Shown: positions 31,848 through 39,264 of the stretch, in pieces | Numbering within the stretch: position 1 is the stretch's first letter | How the letters are laid out: every line of letters starts with the position of its first letter | From: Kiloniellales bacterium | GTDB taxonomy: Bacteria; Pseudomonadota; Alphaproteobacteria; Kiloniellales; JAKSBE01 | Reading direction: 5' to 3' | Assembly (NCBI GenBank): GCA_030066685.1 | Contig: JASJBF010000031.1 | Span: 1-64,000, forward strand | DNA: 64,000 nt | Notes under the pieces: model-generated | What the model saw: only the letters and a program-made list of their open reading frames with translations | The model's database searches: none | Told to the model about the DNA's origin: nothing | Position numbers and translations under genes: made by a program

Positions 31848-32539
31848 CCCTGGCCGCCCGCAAGATCCGCCTGCTGATGGAGCTTCGCCGCAACGGCATC
31901 ACCGACACCGCGGTGCTGCGGGCGATCGAGCAGATCCCGCGCGAGGCCTTCGTGCCAGCGCCCTTCCTCGACCAGGCCTACGAGAACCTGGCGCTGCCGA
32001 TCGAGCGCGGCCAGACCCTGAGCCAGCCCCAGGTGGTCGCCCGCATGACTCAGGGCCTGACCGCCGCGGGCGCGGGCAAGGTGCTGGAGGTCGGGACCGG
32101 CTCGGGCTATCAGACGGCGGTCCTGTCGCGGCTCTGCCGCCGGGTCTACAGCGTCGAGCGCTATCGCGAGCTGAGCGGCGATGCCGAGCAGCGCTTCCGC
32201 GCGCTCAGGCTGCACAACATCGTGCCGAAGGTCGGCGACGGCTGGAACGGCTGGCCGGAGCAGGCGCCCTTTCCGCGGATCATCGTCACCGCCGCGCCGC
32301 CCGACGTGCCGGGAACCCTGGTCGACCAGCTGGCCGAGGGCGGCGTGCTGGTGATCCCGATCGGCCGCCGCAGCCGCCGGCAGGAACTGCTCCGCGTGAC
32401 CAAAGAAAATGGTAAGGTGTCCGAGGAGACACTGGGATCGGTTCGCTTCGTACCACTGGTCTCGGGCGTTCCGGAAGAAGCGCCCAAGCCCGCGGGCCGG
32501 GTCCGCTACTCTGGACCTCCGGGCTGGTCTTTGGCATGA
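31844..32539 (+). CDS. pcm: Protein-L-isoaspartate O-methyltransferase
   Basis: The enzyme repairs isoaspartyl residues in aged proteins. The substrate motif RGQTLSQPQVVARMTQ is standard, and the SAM motif VLEVGTGSGYQTAVL follows. 231 residues. It overlaps surE by 4 bases, so the two are translationally coupled, and its stop overlaps the start of the LysM/M23 gene. Compare the divergent paralogue at 2570-3226, where this motif is altered. Confidence 0.95.
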   Translation: MTLAARKIRLLMELRRNGITDTAVLRAIEQIPREAFVPAPFLDQAYENLALPIERGQTLSQPQVVARMTQGLTAAGAGKVLEVGTGSGYQTAVLSRLCRRVYSVERYRELSGDAEQRFRALRLHNIVPKVGDGWNGWPEQAPFPRIIVTAAPPDVPGTLVDQLAEGGVLVIPIGRRSRRQELLRVTKENGKVSEETLGSVRFVPLVSGVPEEAPKPAGRVRYSGPPGWSLA

Positions 32540-33741
32540 AGGCAGCAGAGGTCGTTATGCTGGCTCGACCGAAAGGCTTCATGACTCTGTGCTTGGCCGT
32601 GGCCGCCGCCGTGGCCCTGGCCGGTTGCGTGCGCACCACCAAGCCAGCCGGCAGCACCTACAAGCCCAGGCCGGCGCCGGGCGTCAATGCCTCCTACGGC
32701 GGCTCCGAGGTGGTGCCCCTGCCGCGGCGCAAGCCGCGTGTGACGGCCAGGGTCCTGCGGCAGATCAAACCGAAGATTCCGAAGTCGGTAGAGACGGTAA
32801 GCGCGGCCCGGCCGGCTAAACCCTCGCCGGCGGTCCGGCCCAACCCGGACCGCGGCCGAGTTGGCTCGGCCGGAATCTACTACGTCACCGTCAGGGACAC
32901 TCTTTATAGCATCTCGCGGCGCTTTCACGTGCCCCTGCGCAGCTTGATCGACGCCAACGGCCTGGAGCCGCCCTACACCCTGCGGGTTGGCCAGAGGCTG
33001 ACCCTGCCGAAGGCGCGGACCTACACCGTAGTCAAGGGAGACACGGTCTACGGGATCTCGCGCCGCCACGGCGTCGACATGAGCGAGCTGATGCGGCTGA
33101 ACGGGATCAAGCCGCCCTATACGATCTCCGTCGGCCAGGCGCTGCGGGTGCCGGATCCGAGCGGCCGGCCGATCGTGGTGGCGACGGCAAGTCTGGCGTC
33201 GAACGGCAGCGCTGCGGCCGCGAAGCCGACCCGGCCGGCGGCGAGCGTGGCTTCGCCGGCACCGCAAGTGCCGGCCGCCGAGGCGGCGCCCCGGCCGGTG
33301 CCGGTCGCTGCCGGCACGGGGCCGGTGCCCAGGCCGCCGCCGCGCTCCGGCAGCAAGTTCCTCTGGCCGGTCCAGGGCAAGGTCGTCTCCGGCTTCGGCG
33401 CCCAGGGCAAGGGCTACCACAACGACGGCATCAATATCCTGGCGCCCCGGGGCGCGGAGGTGCGGGCCGCCGAAAACGGCGTCATCGCCTATGCCGGCAA
33501 CGAGCTGCGGGGCTTCGGCAATCTCGTGCTGGTCAAGCACGACGGCGGCTGGACCACTGCCTACGCGCACACTGACCAGATCCTGGTGAGCCGCGGCCAG
33601 ACCGTGAAGCGGGGCCAGATGATCGCCCGCGTCGGCTCCAGCGGCAACGTCGCACGGCCGCAGCTGCACTTCGAGATCCGCAAGGGCGCGCGCGCCGTGG
33701 ATCCGACGCGCCTGCTCGGCCCTCAGGACGCGAAGCTCTAG
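32536..33741 (+). CDS. LysM / M23-type lipoprotein (NlpD-like)
   Basis: A lipoprotein signal peptide ends at LAGC31; two LysM domains follow (about 113-156 and 161-206), then a Pro/Ala linker and a C-terminal LytM/M23 domain (about 280-395). The Zn-binding positions are altered: YHNDGINI in place of H-x-G-x-D, and PQLHFE in place of H-x-H. The domain therefore looks non-catalytic, as in NlpD/EnvC-type amidase activators. It overlaps pcm by 4 bases. The second Met (32557) has the better ribosome site (AGAGG) and may be the true start. It probably supports cell separation at the septum. Confidence 0.88.
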   Translation: MKAAEVVMLARPKGFMTLCLAVAAAVALAGCVRTTKPAGSTYKPRPAPGVNASYGGSEVVPLPRRKPRVTARVLRQIKPKIPKSVETVSAARPAKPSPAVRPNPDRGRVGSAGIYYVTVRDTLYSISRRFHVPLRSLIDANGLEPPYTLRVGQRLTLPKARTYTVVKGDTVYGISRRHGVDMSELMRLNGIKPPYTISVGQALRVPDPSGRPIVVATASLASNGSAAAAKPTRPAASVASPAPQVPAAEAAPRPVPVAAGTGPVPRPPPRSGSKFLWPVQGKVVSGFGAQGKGYHNDGINILAPRGAEVRAAENGVIAYAGNELRGFGNLVLVKHDGGWTTAYAHTDQILVSRGQTVKRGQMIARVGSSGNVARPQLHFEIRKGARAVDPTRLLGPQDAKL

Positions 33742-33937
33742 GCTTGGCCGAGACCGGCCCGGCTCTCGAATCCGCGTCCTTCGACCGGCCCGAAACGACG
33801 GCAGTTCACGCCGAATAGCTGGCATTCTCGCTTTTATCGTCTCTTAAGCTTCACTGGCCATAGTCGCGCCGGTTGCAACTCCCGGGCGGCGTCTTCATCC
33901 CCCCGCGCGTCCGCAGGATTATCGCAAGGAACTCGTC

Positions 33938-34687
33938 ATGGCCGTGACCTCGATGCCGACCCCGCCGAAGCCGAACGACGCAAGCGGACGGATGGGCCGC
34001 TGGTTCGCCCTCCTCATCGTCGGGCTCGGGCTCTCCGCCTGCGTTCAGATGCCGACGACCGTACGCCTCGACCCCGCGGCACAGCCGATGCGGGGCGCCA
34101 AGGTCCTGATCATGCAACCTGACGTGGAGGTCTCGGAGCTGACCGCCGGCGGTCTGCTGGAGCCCAACGCGGCCTGGACGGCGGCGGCCGAAGCCAACAT
34201 CGACCGGGCCCTGGAGAGGGTGCTCGCCGACATGGGCGCCAATTGGGTCCACATCAACCGCAACGGCAAGCTGATCCGCAGCCCCAAGGTCTCCCAGCTG
34301 GTCAAGCTGCACCAGATCGTCGGAACGTCGATCCGCCTCTACGAATACGGCCGGGTCGCGCCGTTGCTGAGCAAGCAGGGCGCGTTCGACTGGACTCTGG
34401 GCAAAGACGCCGCCGAGCTGGGCAGGGCCTACAAGGCCGACTACGCGCTCTTCGTTCACTTCCGGGACAGCTTCTCCAGCGATGCCCGTATCGCCATGAA
34501 CGTGGTGAGCACCATTTTGTTCGGGCAGGCGCAAGGCGGGCTGCAGAGCGGCTTTGCGTCGCTGGTCGACCTGCGCAGCGGCAAGATCATCTGGTTCAAT
34601 GAATTCTGGCGGGAAACCGGAGACCTGCGCGAAGCGGAGGCCGCGGTCGACGCCTCGAAGGTCCTCCTCGCCGAGCTGCCCTTCTAG
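33938..34687 (+). CDS. Uncharacterised lipoprotein, CsgG/DUF799-like in outline
   Basis: A signal with lipobox LSAC35 marks a lipoprotein of 249 residues. The body has AKVLIMQPDVEV at the start, a helix with multiple Ala, then YALFVHFRDSFSS and a strand ASLVDLRSGKIIWFNE. This pattern resembles CsgG/LpoB/DUF799-type lipoproteins, but the similarity is by outline only. It is the first gene of a run of three lipoprotein genes ending at 36412, 196 bp after the LysM/M23 gene. The AAGGAAC site supports the ATG at 33938. Function unknown. Confidence 0.75.
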   Translation: MAVTSMPTPPKPNDASGRMGRWFALLIVGLGLSACVQMPTTVRLDPAAQPMRGAKVLIMQPDVEVSELTAGGLLEPNAAWTAAAEANIDRALERVLADMGANWVHINRNGKLIRSPKVSQLVKLHQIVGTSIRLYEYGRVAPLLSKQGAFDWTLGKDAAELGRAYKADYALFVHFRDSFSSDARIAMNVVSTILFGQAQGGLQSGFASLVDLRSGKIIWFNEFWRETGDLREAEAAVDASKVLLAELPF

Positions 34688-34697
34688 GAGCGGAGCG

Positions 34698-35840
34698 ATG
34701 TCAGGGCTGCAGCGACACTTGGCGTCGGCCACCATCGGCCTGCTTCTGGCAGCCTGCTCGTCGGCCAGCAGCATCCAGGACATCCGCCCGGGCGAACGGC
34801 CGAACCTCGAGACCGACGAGGCCGGTCTCTGGATGCGCGTGGACCGGGCCGAACAGGACTTGCGCGACTCCGGCCAGGTCGTCGAGGACCCGGCCTTGCA
34901 GGCCTATCTGGAGGGGATCGTCTGCAGGCTGGCGCCCGACTACTGCCAGGACGTGCGGGTTTACATCGTCCGCAGCCCCGGCTTCAACGCCAGCATGGCG
35001 CCGAACGGGATGATGGTGGTCTGGACCGGCCTGTTGCTGCGCTGCCGGAACGAGGCTCAGCTCGCCCACGTCCTGGCGCACGAGCTCGCCCACTACGTCC
35101 AGCGGCACAGCCTGAAGCACTGGCGGGATCTGCGGGACACCTCCAGCGGCATGGCCTTCGTTCAGCTCGGCCTGGGCGCGATCGGCGACCTCGCAACGCT
35201 CGGCGCGCTGGGCGGGGTCATGTCCTACGCCCGAGAATACGAGCGCGAGGCCGACCGGATCGGGATGTCGATGATTCAGCGTGCCGGCTACAGCGGCGCC
35301 GAAGCCATGGGAGTCTGGGACTACCTGGTCCGCGAAAAAGAGGCCGCCGATGATGGCGACGGCTTTATCTTCTTTGCGAGCCATCCGCCCAGCGACGAAC
35401 GGCGCGACACTCTGGCCGCGTTGGCGCAAGCGAAGCCCGGAAAAGGACGGGTCGGCAGCAAGCAATACCGAAGGCTGACGGCCGGCCATCGCGTGGCCTG
35501 GCTGCGCGACGAGCTGCAGCTGCGTGACTATCCGCGCATCGAAGCCCTGACGGCACACCTTCTGGAGACCGGGGCCGCCCCCGGCCCGGTGCACTTCCTG
35601 CGCGGCGAGGCCTATCGCCTGCGCGACGAAGAGGGTGACACCCGCAAGGCGCTGGCCGCCTATCACGCCGCCCTGAAGACCCGGCAGGCGCCCGCCGAGA
35701 CCTTTCGCTCCCTGGGCCTGGTGCTCTGGTCCATGGGGGAGCCGGGGAAAGCCCAGAGCGCCTTCCGGCAGTACATCCGCCGGCGGCCGGAGGCCGATGA
35801 CCGCGCGATGGTCGAAGACTACATCAATCAGCTCAACTGA
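34698..35840 (+). CDS. M48-family lipoprotein metalloprotease with TPR-like tail
   Basis: Lipobox LLAAC20, then an M48 peptidase domain with HELAH (128-132) as zinc-binding motif and REYEREADRIGM providing the third ligand. The C-terminal half (from about residue 290) is helical and Ala-rich, like TPR repeats. The layout resembles periplasmic outer-membrane quality proteases such as BepA. 380 residues, 10 bp after the previous gene; AGGAG upstream. Family certain; partners unknown. Confidence 0.9.
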   Translation: MSGLQRHLASATIGLLLAACSSASSIQDIRPGERPNLETDEAGLWMRVDRAEQDLRDSGQVVEDPALQAYLEGIVCRLAPDYCQDVRVYIVRSPGFNASMAPNGMMVVWTGLLLRCRNEAQLAHVLAHELAHYVQRHSLKHWRDLRDTSSGMAFVQLGLGAIGDLATLGALGGVMSYAREYEREADRIGMSMIQRAGYSGAEAMGVWDYLVREKEAADDGDGFIFFASHPPSDERRDTLAALAQAKPGKGRVGSKQYRRLTAGHRVAWLRDELQLRDYPRIEALTAHLLETGAAPGPVHFLRGEAYRLRDEEGDTRKALAAYHAALKTRQAPAETFRSLGLVLWSMGEPGKAQSAFRQYIRRRPEADDRAMVEDYINQLN

Positions 35841-35848
35841 GGTTGGTC

Positions 35849-36412
35849 ATGAGAGCGAAGATCTCCTGTCTGGTTCTGCTTCTGGTTCTTGCGTCCTGCA
35901 GCCCCTACCGCTTGGTCGAGCCGAAGCAGCAGATCATCGGCGAGCGCTACAGCGTTACCACCCCGATCGCCTGGACCGGCGCCGCGATACAAGGCGGCGA
36001 GACCTGGACCATAAACGGGCCGGCGCTGGACGAGCTGAACTTCTTCGCCGGCATTGGCGAGGGGCGCAGCCTGGTCTCGCCGGACGCCGGCACCGGCATT
36101 CCGCCGGCGTTCAAATCGCGGATGCGGGCCAACGAGGTCATGGAGCTGGTCACCGACAGCCTGGCCTATCTCGGCTTCAAGCGGGCCAAGGGCAGCAAGC
36201 TCCGCCCGGCCAAGTTCGGCCAGCTTTCCGGCTTTCGCTTCGAGTTCGTCTTCACCTCGGAGGACGGGTTGAAGTACGCCGGCAAGGCCATCGGCGCGGT
36301 CCACCAGGGCGAGCTGCACCTGATCCTGTTCTCGGCGCCCTTCACCCACTACTTCCCGACCTACAACCAGACCGTCGAGCAGATCTTCACCTCGATCGAC
36401 GTGGTGTCTTAG
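35849..36412 (+). CDS. Uncharacterised lipoprotein, third gene of module
   Basis: A lipobox LASC17 directly after a short hydrophobic segment makes this a 187-residue lipoprotein. The body has ERYSVTTPIAWT and FEFVFTSEDGLKYAGKAIG, with a beta-strand pattern, but no family is recognised. The ATG at 35849 is preceded by GAGG; it follows the M48 gene by 8 bp and appears co-transcribed with it. Confidence 0.8.
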   Translation: MRAKISCLVLLLVLASCSPYRLVEPKQQIIGERYSVTTPIAWTGAAIQGGETWTINGPALDELNFFAGIGEGRSLVSPDAGTGIPPAFKSRMRANEVMELVTDSLAYLGFKRAKGSKLRPAKFGQLSGFRFEFVFTSEDGLKYAGKAIGAVHQGELHLILFSAPFTHYFPTYNQTVEQIFTSIDVVS

Positions 36413-36430
36413 GGCCGTCAGCTCCCCGCC

Positions 36431-37555
36431 TCAAGGCAAGGATCTCCAGAGGGCCCAGGCCCGGTCGGCGGCCTGGAAGTCGGCCTGCAGCGACGCCCGG
36501 ACCGAGGCGATGTCGGCCGGCGTGATCGGCGGTGTCGCGGCCCGGCCCATGCCCGCCGGGCCGCCGAGCGGCCCCGGTCTCACCCAGCCGGCGCTCTGGA
36601 TCTCCGCCGCGGTGACCGTGGCGGTGCCCGCCCAGACCTGGTCGGCGGTGCCCACCGCCACGAAGGTGCCGGTGGTGCCGCCGAGGTCGCAGGTGTAGTG
36701 CCAATCCCGCGCGGCCCGGTCGTAGCGCGCGGTCTGCCAGTTCCAGGCGCCGACGGCGGTGAGGTGCGCGGCCAGGGAGCGGCCCGCACTGGTCGTGGCC
36801 TGATTGAAGTCCTGCAGGTGGATGCGCTCGAAGTTGAGGCGGAACAGGCCGACCGGCGCTCGCAGCGCGATCGCGTCCCGCGCGTCCCACATCGCCGCCG
36901 CCGCCGGCGCTTCCTGGCGCTCCAGCGCGCTCAGCCAGTGGTTGTCCCGCCGGGGCGCAGCGTCTTGGCGCAGCCAGACGGTGCCATCGAACCCGAGGTC
37001 GACCGCGTTGCCGTAGTTGTGGTTGCTTTCGCCCGGTCCGGCATAGGACTGCGGAGGCCGAATCCGCGCCTGCTCGGCGAAGCTCCGCCGGCCGCCGTTC
37101 GGGGTCGTGCTGAGCACCAGCCCATGGGCCCGATGCATGGCCTGCACGAGATCCGCGACTCGGGCGCGGAACGCTGGCCGCAGGTTGGGGTCGGTCCGGA
37201 TCGCCTGCGCCGCCGCATTCGCATCCGCGGCCGGGCGGCCGAGGTAGACCACCCGCTGACCCGAAAGCACCCGAAGGTCGCGCCGGTCGGCCGGCAGCAG
37301 GCGCGCCAGGCTGGTTTGCGTGTGGCCGCCGGGCGTGACGACCAGCGGGGCGATGGGGACCGCATCGCCGCCGTGGTCGGCCTGAAAGGCGCCGATTGCC
37401 GCCTCGGTGATCGGGCCGTAGCCGCCGTCTATCCGGCCGCCGAGATAGGGTCGGCCCTGCGGACCGTCGACCAGTCGCAGCGCCGCCTGCACCAGGGCCA
37501 CGTCGTGACGGGCGTTGGGCTGGCCCGGCCCGACCGCTTGCGCCAGTGTCTGCAC
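36431..37555 (-). CDS. Peptidoglycan-binding plus M15-type D,D/L,D-peptidase
   Basis: The N-terminal part is a peptidoglycan-binding-like domain (about 15-90, with GGRIDGGYGPITEAAIGAFQ), the C-terminal part an M15/VanY-type peptidase: SNHNYGNAVD (S177-D186) provides the Zn ligands His179 and Asp186, and NFERIH supplies Glu243 and His246. No signal peptide is visible, so it resembles phage or tailocin lysins that reach the wall by a holin or injection rather than a housekeeping carboxypeptidase. GTG start with GGAGGAG upstream. 374 residues. The next gene on the same strand is a secreted protein. Confidence 0.82.
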   Translation of the reverse strand: MQTLAQAVGPGQPNARHDVALVQAALRLVDGPQGRPYLGGRIDGGYGPITEAAIGAFQADHGGDAVPIAPLVVTPGGHTQTSLARLLPADRRDLRVLSGQRVVYLGRPAADANAAAQAIRTDPNLRPAFRARVADLVQAMHRAHGLVLSTTPNGGRRSFAEQARIRPPQSYAGPGESNHNYGNAVDLGFDGTVWLRQDAAPRRDNHWLSALERQEAPAAAAMWDARDAIALRAPVGLFRLNFERIHLQDFNQATTSAGRSLAAHLTAVGAWNWQTARYDRAARDWHYTCDLGGTTGTFVAVGTADQVWAGTATVTAAEIQSAGWVRPGPLGGPAGMGRAATPPITPADIASVRASLQADFQAADRAWALWRSLP

Positions 37556-37603
37556 CTCGAACTCCTCCGCTTGAAACCGGTCTCGGGGACGCGGGCACCG
37601 CGT

Positions 37604-38233
37604 CTATTCGGGGTTCGGCGCAAGCTCCGGGCCCGAGGGGCCCGGGCGCCACTCCAGGGTCTCAGAAGTGACGGCTCCATCCGGTGCCACGCGACGCAGC
37701 GCGATGCCGCCCTCGATTGGCGCCATGCTGAGGACCTCGGGGCCGGGCCCTTCGACGCCCTTCTTGACGGCGACGAGCCCGCCGCCGTCGACGGTGAGTA
37801 CGACGTGGGCGCGCTTCACGTGATCGAAGCCGGCGGTCTGATGCACCAGGACCGCCGGCCCGCCGACGCCGGTATCGATGACCTCGACGGCGACCCCGAT
37901 GCTGTTCTCCTCGCGCCCGATGGCCCAGGCGGTCAGGGCCCGGGCCTTCTCGCCCGGCAGGAGGTGACCGAAGCTCGGATCGGCGGGGATCGGCGCGATC
38001 TCACCGCTTGGGGCGCGGAACGGCAAGGGATCGGAGCGGAGCTGGCCGCCCTCGATCCAGGCCGTGATCGTGATATCGCAGCCCTGCGCATCACAGGAGA
38101 CCTCGGGCCTGGGGTCGGTGAGCGCCGGGCCTTCGGTCCCGGCGCGCGTGGGCAGGCCAGGAAACAAGGCCGGTCCCAGGGCCAGAACGGCGAGGAGGGC
38201 GATAGCGGGTCGCCGGTGCGGCGCGAGGCTCAT
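37604..38233 (-). CDS. Uncharacterised secreted protein
   Basis: The start at 38233 gives a signal peptide (MSLAPHRRPAIALLAVLALGPALFPGLPTRAG) and a 209-residue protein; longer in-frame starts are possible (38266, 38323). Two cysteines in VSCDAQGCDI may form a disulphide. No family is recognised. It is 48 bp upstream of the M15 peptidase on the same strand and probably co-transcribed with it, so it could be a partner of that enzyme. Confidence 0.6.
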   Translation of the reverse strand: MSLAPHRRPAIALLAVLALGPALFPGLPTRAGTEGPALTDPRPEVSCDAQGCDITITAWIEGGQLRSDPLPFRAPSGEIAPIPADPSFGHLLPGEKARALTAWAIGREENSIGVAVEVIDTGVGGPAVLVHQTAGFDHVKRAHVVLTVDGGGLVAVKKGVEGPGPEVLSMAPIEGGIALRRVAPDGAVTSETLEWRPGPSGPELAPNPE

Positions 38234-38385
38234 CCAGGACCCTCTCCAAGGAATGCCCGTGGTCATGTCCCCGGCCACAGGTTCGCTAAGGGGTGTTCCG
38301 GGGCGGCCTTTGCTGCCCCTCAACCTCGGCGCGCACGATAGGCTGTCCGGTCGCGGAGTTCAATCTTGGCGGCCTGGCCGCGGCC

Positions 38386-39264
38386 TCAGGTCAGGGGCTT
38401 GCCCAGGCGGCCGGCGAGGTCCTGGATGTACTGCCAGGCGACCCGGCCCGAGCGGCTGCCGCGGGTCACCGCCCATTCCTTGGCCTCGGCGCGCAGCTGC
38501 TCGGCCGGCAGCTCCAGGCCGTAGTGGGCGGCATAGCCCTCGATCATCGCGAAGTAAGTGTCCTGGTCGCAGTTGTGGAAGCCGAGCCAGAGGCCGAAGC
38601 GGTCCGACAGGCTGACCTTCTCCTCGACCGCCTCGGACGGAGCGATCGCGGTCGAGCGCTCGTTCTCGATCATCTCCCGCGGCATGAGATGGCGCCGGTT
38701 CGAGGTCGCGTAGAACAGCACGTTCTCGGGCCGGCCCTCGATGCCGCCCTCGAGGACCGCCTTCAGGGACTTGTAGCTGGTATCCGCGCTGTCGAAGCTC
38801 AAGTCGTCGCAGAACAACAGGCAGCGCCGCTCGGCCTCGCGCAGGCGCTGCAGCAGGCGCGGCAGGCCGGGGATGTCCTCGCGGTGGATCTCGACCAGGG
38901 CCAGGGCCGGGTGGCCGCCCTCGGCCGCGCCGTCGTTGACCGCGGCGTGCACCGCCTTGACCAGTGAGCTCTTGCCCATGCCCCGGGCGCCCCAGAGCAG
39001 GGCGTTGTTGGCCGGCAGGCCGCGTGCAAAGCGGCGGGTGTTCTCGAGCAGGGTCGCCTGCTGGCGCTCGACGCCCTTCAGGAGGCCGATCTCGACCCGG
39101 TTGACCCGGGGCACCGGCTCCAGGTGGTCGCCCTCGGCGTGCCAGACGAAGGCGTCGGCGGTGTCCAGGGGGACCAGGGCCGGGGGCAGGGGCGCCAGCC
39201 GCTCGAGGGCGTCGGCGATCCGCCGCAGCAGCAGGGAAAGGTCCTTGGCCGGCGGCCTGCTCAT
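38386..39264 (-). CDS. DUF815-family AAA-type ATPase
   Basis: The 292-residue protein has Walker A GARGMGKSSLVK and Walker B LLFCDDLSF, with YATSNRRHLMPREMIENE containing the sensor Asn/Arg region typical of DUF815. The family is widespread and uncharacterised, usually near yajC/secD as here. It is on the minus strand and divergent from yajC, with 206 bp between them. Confidence 0.9.
   Translation of the reverse strand: MSRPPAKDLSLLLRRIADALERLAPLPPALVPLDTADAFVWHAEGDHLEPVPRVNRVEIGLLKGVERQQATLLENTRRFARGLPANNALLWGARGMGKSSLVKAVHAAVNDGAAEGGHPALALVEIHREDIPGLPRLLQRLREAERRCLLFCDDLSFDSADTSYKSLKAVLEGGIEGRPENVLFYATSNRRHLMPREMIENERSTAIAPSEAVEEKVSLSDRFGLWLGFHNCDQDTYFAMIEGYAAHYGLELPAEQLRAEAKEWAVTRGSRSGRVAWQYIQDLAGRLGKPLT

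Follow-up and report, generated by a model that had tools for sequence, protein, structure and literature searches.

The stretch analysed here (the window) comprises 64,000 nucleotides from a Kiloniellales bacterium (genome G000). Five open reading frames lie between a LysM/M23 gene and the gene for a DUF815 ATPase, where a first-pass annotation had placed and described them (Table 1). The three plus-strand genes, L1, M48 and L3, are referred to below as the trio; their products carry the lipoboxes LSAC, LAAC and LASC, and the spacing is 10 nt between L1 and M48 and 8 nt between M48 and L3. Coding-bias scores, obtained with none of the five genes in the training set, are 116, 148, 105, 105 and 52 in order from L1 to the secreted protein, and the sister genome G001 encodes orthologues of all five with 71-86% identity; given these scores and orthologues, the five are real genes. 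Nothing in their GC3 points to recent arrival, as the values (0.86-0.91) are near the 0.88-0.96 obtained for eight flanking genes. A scan for promoters and terminators returned nothing above chance.

Table 1 Genes and features at the LysM/M23-DUF815 junction of the window
Feature	Position	Strand	Evidence
Left flank: LysM/M23 (NlpD/DipM-like) lipoprotein	32536..33741	+	Pfam, NCBIfam
L1: lipoprotein, predicted PelC/GNA1162/CsgG/TolB-N-like fold	33938..34687	+	ORF, lipobox, AlphaFold2 model
L1, alternative start	33992	+	
M48: zinc metalloprotease, lipidated, short C-terminal TPR region	34698..35840	+	Pfam M48, lipobox
L3: lipoprotein, predicted PsbP/Mog1-like fold	35849..36412	+	ORF, lipobox, AlphaFold2 model
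Putative M15-like peptidase, N-terminal PG-binding domain, without signal peptide, GTG start	36431..37555	-	Sub-threshold Pfam, motifs
Secreted protein, without a Pfam or NCBIfam match above cut-off	37604..38233	-	
Right flank: DUF815 ATPase, convergent with left flank	38386..39264	-	Pfam, 353 bits

Among 58 genomes of the order, DUF815 was detected in 55 at the threshold used and the LysM/M23 gene in 51 (E 1e-40). Both flanks lie on one contig in 45 genomes, no more than 10 kb apart in 42 and farther apart in three. The gaps in these 42 genomes, which were measured between matched segments and are thus upper bounds, amount to 200 nt or less in 26, 201-1500 nt in 10 and more than 2.5 kb in six. 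These counts agree with the first-pass view that the LysM/M23 gene usually sits close to DUF815 and that in the window accessory genes have been inserted between two flanks that otherwise lie close together. The six wide junctions are those of the window, G001, G006, G015, G013 and G040, and the cargo of the last four has no gene in common with the window's five. Because the wide junctions hold different cargo, the window and G001 excepted, the space between these two convergent genes is a variable spot that collects different genes. In one genus, it holds a protein of 108-121 aa (L135, L137, L138, L145, L146), which we take to be an ABM-type monooxygenase.

The trio has a distribution of its own. 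Three separate searches placed L1, M48 and L3 each in an identical set of 12 of the 58 order genomes, where the genes are adjacent and in the same order. At the level of the class, separate searches for L1 and L3 returned an identical 28 of 385 genomes; the two genes share contig and strand in 27 of them (the 28th is split over contigs), at a distance of 1120-1345 nt in 26 of the 27 and of 2117 nt in the other, G187, and an M48 gene stands beside L1 in all 27 class-level loci tested. At the level of the phylum, L1 was found in 8 of 398 genomes. A pattern scan over one genome per species (84,980 species) gave 294 encoding stretches, of which the best 80 were kept as named loci, all of them retained for the lipobox and synteny counts. 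The L1-M48-L3 arrangement, in the same order and on the same strand, is present in 77 of these best 80 of 294, and the remaining three end before L3 or M48. The best 80 of 294 span Alpha-, Gamma- and Betaproteobacteria; records with the trio among them belong to Azospirillum, Sneathiella, Pelagibius, Caulobacter and Sphingomonas and further to Pseudoalteromonas, Alteromonas, Microbulbifer and Accumulibacter, with the proviso that titles of metagenome-assembled genomes may be wrong. All co-occurrence figures are counts in genomes related to each other and not probabilities. Divergence of the three proteins is correlated, with coefficients of 0.48, 0.43 and 0.60 between their distance matrices over 70 loci (0 of 2000 permutations as high).

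On plasmids, L1 occurs in two records, from Azospirillum and Sphingobium yanoikuyae, the trio of the latter being annotated as hypothetical protein, M48 family metallopeptidase and hypothetical protein. The search of phages found no L1 relative, and that of viral contigs confirmed none. In a concatenated tree of 70 loci, whose support values were not considered, most of the named Gammaproteobacteria group together and the window stands beside Sneathiella-type sequences; we draw no claim of transfer from it. L1-M48-L3 is a self-contained three-gene unit, patchily distributed across Proteobacteria and found at many places. A literature search, weak in that most subscription papers were outside its reach, found no description of it, and we regard it as a widely shared, undescribed bacterial operon.

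The first-pass annotation had instead joined all five genes into one two-armed module. The window and G001 do hold all five in the same arrangement. However, the trio adjoins the LysM/M23 gene in the window's genus alone (three of the 12 genomes) and lies elsewhere in the other nine, none of which has a full homologue of the remaining two genes; in four of them (G045, G048, G052 and G053) the LysM/M23-DUF815 junction is closed, with a gap of at most 100 nt. The third member of the genus, G002, likewise gave no match to the other two genes, an absence that is not established, as its assembly breaks at the decisive spot, with one contig stopping some 100 nt past L3 and another within DUF815. Across the 58 order genomes, a full-length homologue of the M15-like gene is present in G001 only, with marginal matches in three further genomes (best E 4.2e-5), and the secreted gene is confined to G000 and G001. 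A comparison of synteny had been proposed, with independent scattering of the genes named as the outcome that would speak against a module, and this is what emerged: the trio travels without the other two genes in the order, in the class and among the named loci. We therefore reject the five-gene module for the order and give it next to no probability. A gene block that is conspicuous in one genome can thus consist of two unrelated groups of genes that came separately to the same variable junction.

The M15-like and secreted genes appear to have arrived independently within the genus, outside the three-gene unit. The M15-like protein carries HNYGNAVD and ERIH, both conserved in G001, which we assume to fit the M15 metal and catalytic motif HxxGxAxD and ExxH. 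Its best scores are 17.3 bits against a cut-off of 25 for Pfam M15 and 22.5 bits against a cut-off of 23 for the PG-binding domain. The M15 label, based on motifs and sub-threshold profile scores, is therefore putative; the first-pass call of an M15 peptidase without signal peptide held as to the missing signal and the motifs, but not as to a Pfam M15 match above the cut-off. These motifs, the PG-binding domain and the absence of a signal peptide, next to a gene whose product has one, would suit a toxin-immunity pair composed of a peptidoglycan-cutting protein and its periplasmic protector. A second example of such a pair did not emerge, since plasmids, phages and viral contigs yielded no homologue of the M15-like gene (nor plasmids one of the secreted gene), and we consider this explanation quite improbable.

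The central gene of the trio encodes an M48 peptidase (Pfam PF01435, 82.2 bits against a cut-off of 20.3). Its zinc ligands are complete, and the HExxH motif (H128, E129, H132), E182 and the HPx4R plug (H229, P230, R235) are invariant in all 77 aligned M48 sequences; the alignment comprises 77 of 79 rows, the window included, with L242 and L247 left out for covering less than 75% of the profile. The TPR tail is weak, with TPR models matching only around residues 310-374 and all below their cut-offs. The earlier description of three consecutive lipoprotein genes, one of them an M48 protease with a TPR-like tail, is borne out by the lipoboxes, the M48 score and this weak TPR region. Across loci, the M48 protein has a strict-pattern lipobox in 47 of 79, and some of those without it start with a signal peptide that is plain or resembles the twin-arginine type. 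These counts indicate that the description as three lipoproteins holds for the window and that M48 is not lipidated everywhere, a point that speaks against the reading proposed below. A twin-arginine-like signal rather than a clear lipobox was seen in L229, L249, L252, L240 and others.

When the M48 profile was compared with solved structures, the best matches among natural proteins were 3c37 and BepA (YfgC), the E. coli M48-TPR periplasmic protease, which acts with the BAM complex on LptD/BamA. According to PMC7950410, the HPx4R plug is conserved across M48 proteases and is autoregulatory in BepA, and the BepA TPR domain is needed for interaction with Bam. The trio protein resembles BepA in its M48 domain, HExxH motif, third ligand Glu, HPx4R plug and TPR tail, and could simply be the BepA of this genome, with L1 and L3 as ordinary outer-membrane biogenesis genes. 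It differs, however, in being lipidated in the window, in its short TPR region and in its gene lying between two lipoprotein genes. Moreover, its match to the NCBIfam BepA profile (NF052400) covers residues 54-214 only and reaches 81.8 bits against a cut-off of 570, so that it falls short of the BepA equivalog both in score and in lacking a full-length TPR region after the protease domain. G000 contains eight M48 genes, one of which (G000:C57) encodes a separate M48-TPR protein that matches the same profile over residues 54-419 with 165.6 bits; as this too is below 570, the cut-off is a strict one. The weak partial match and the separate G000:C57, together with the absence of the operon from 46 of the 58 order genomes, make it very improbable that the trio M48 is the genome's BepA.

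LoiP and YcaL are lipid-anchored M48 proteases, as is the trio M48 in the window. The NCBIfam LoiP profile (NF052399) nevertheless gives the trio protein 22.7 bits against a cut-off of 365, and both LoiP and YcaL are without TPR according to PMC7950410, whereas the trio M48 has a short TPR region. The genome also encodes a second lipoprotein M48 (G000:C28, L297), whose C-terminal domain is present in 50 of the 58 order genomes, with LysM at its end. We considered this domain as a fused, PsbP-like counterpart of L3, and the idea was unconfirmed and is not used as evidence: Pfam PsbP gave weak hits in 4 of the 28 members of the domain family (best E 0.0035), profile-profile comparison with L3 gave nothing (probability 0.1 to 0.6%), and a PDB search returned chance-level matches only.

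The window's L1 and L3 proteins match no Pfam family, and we turned to structure prediction. The AlphaFold2 model of L1 (pLDDT 91.2) aligned best with PelC (Z 11.4 over 132 residues at 3.0 A, against about 6 for unrelated rows), followed by GNA1162 (Z 8.9), the N-terminal domain of TolB (8.7), CsgG (8.6) and LpoB (7.7); the Foldseek E value was 5.9e-7. L1 is thus predicted to share the fold of the PelC/GNA1162/CsgG superfamily and is not recognisable as a member by sequence: among 75 L1 homologues, Pfam matches were weak and scattered, and a PDB profile search gave none. In contrast to the PelC, GNA1162, CsgG, LpoB and TolB-N lipoproteins it resembles, L1 stands in no recognised Pel, curli or GNA1162 operon context. 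The L3 model (pLDDT 96.4) aligned with PsbP (Z 13.9 over 144 residues at 3.1 A), LpqN (Z 11.7), Mog1 (11.0), DcrB (10.8) and type VI secretion system (T6SS) chaperone and immunity proteins, which places it in the PsbP/Mog1 fold. Unlike the PsbP, Mog1, DcrB and LpqN proteins, the window's L3 has no Pfam match; PF01789 (PsbP) was hit by 4 of 72 members of the L3 family at E <=0.1 (best 0.0049). The alignments used 75 of 80 rows for L1 and 72 of 77 for L3 (76 reached the coverage limit of 75% of the profile; L193 was left out), the window included. A predicted fold and a partner can thereby be assigned to two protein families that lack a Pfam entry. Sharing these modelled folds does not itself show what L1 and L3 may do.

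The strict pattern recognises a lipobox in 68 of 80 L1 and 74 of 77 L3 proteins; several of the misses look like lipoboxes by eye, and one L1 is truncated. In E. coli, Asp at position +2 governs lipoprotein sorting, and the outer membrane is the expected destination without it. Asp occupies this position in 1 of 68 L1, 0 of 47 M48 and 1 of 74 L3 proteins, and by the E. coli rule this near absence predicts sorting to the outer membrane.

The genes are strictly linked, tightly spaced and correlated in their divergence, and the protease is intact and plug-gated; taken together, this suggests a protease that has two partners of its own at the outer membrane. We tentatively propose, with somewhat less than even confidence, that L1, M48 and L3 together form a gated zinc protease on the periplasmic side of the outer membrane, the two lipoproteins being its partners. 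Three exported and mostly lipid-anchored proteins would act together there, with the M48 subunit kept shut by its HPx4R plug. The fold predicted for L1 occurs in outer-membrane lipoproteins that form rings or complexes, and that predicted for L3 in chaperones and protein-binding lipoproteins; the two may dock M48, hand it its substrate or unlock its plug. As substrate, the most likely candidate would be an exported or outer-membrane protein that has stalled or reached the wrong place, and the role of the trio is probably quality control of such proteins. Of the first-pass suggestion of outer-membrane quality control or wall remodelling by a five-gene system, quality control thus survives as the best guess for the first three genes, and the five-gene system does not.

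The best structural matches of L1 are PelC and other lipoproteins of export or outer-membrane complexes, and chaperones and T6SS immunity lipoproteins are among the proteins with the L3 fold; these could instead indicate dedicated processing or secretion, in which L1 would be a PelC/CsgG-like exit or scaffold, M48 would mature one exported substrate and L3 would be its chaperone. On the other hand, no neighbour family is common to more than 11 of 79 named trio loci (L227 was skipped in this count), no shared substrate gene lies beside the operon, and no beta-barrel partner was recognised among the neighbours, part of which are annotated. We regard this alternative as unlikely. A low probability also attaches to a bolder form of the gated protease proposed above, a widespread outer-membrane protease machine with L1 as a PelC/CsgG-like ring or scaffold on the membrane's inner face, L3 feeding the substrate and M48 opened only within the assembly; if true, it would be a modular, transferable device for quality control or surface remodelling in Proteobacteria, alongside BepA. 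PMC7950410 describes as unsettled how periplasmic M48 proteases select what they cleave and how they become open. An operon that pairs M48 with two dedicated lipoproteins in Alpha-, Beta- and Gammaproteobacteria offers a small, testable system for both questions.

Several observations concern the surroundings and variants of the trio. A gene that we presume to encode an acyl-CoA synthetase-like protein is found near it in 8 of 79 loci (L179, L185, L197, L221, L236, L249, L251 and L256), a proximity that so large a family could show by chance. In G038 (L127) and G050 (L128), the trio adjoins the same three-gene group, on opposite sides of it; we take this group to encode a CHASE2 cyclase, a FecR-like protein and a lipoprotein. 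On Sphingobium yanoikuyae plasmid pKN1 (L343), a group of sigma-70 family sigma factor, FecR and TonB-receptor genes is followed by the trio and then by an excalibur-domain gene. Pairs of L1-like and L3-like genes without an M48 gene occur in G001:C428 (L121:9732-11145) and G002:C458 (L120:417-1794), with an L1 that lacks a lipobox in both; these protease-less variants speak against the gated protease proposed above and suggest that the two lipoproteins may function without M48. G002:C137 (L119) carries a tandem duplication of one full and one partial trio, and G053:C1 (L124) has three consecutive L3-like genes.
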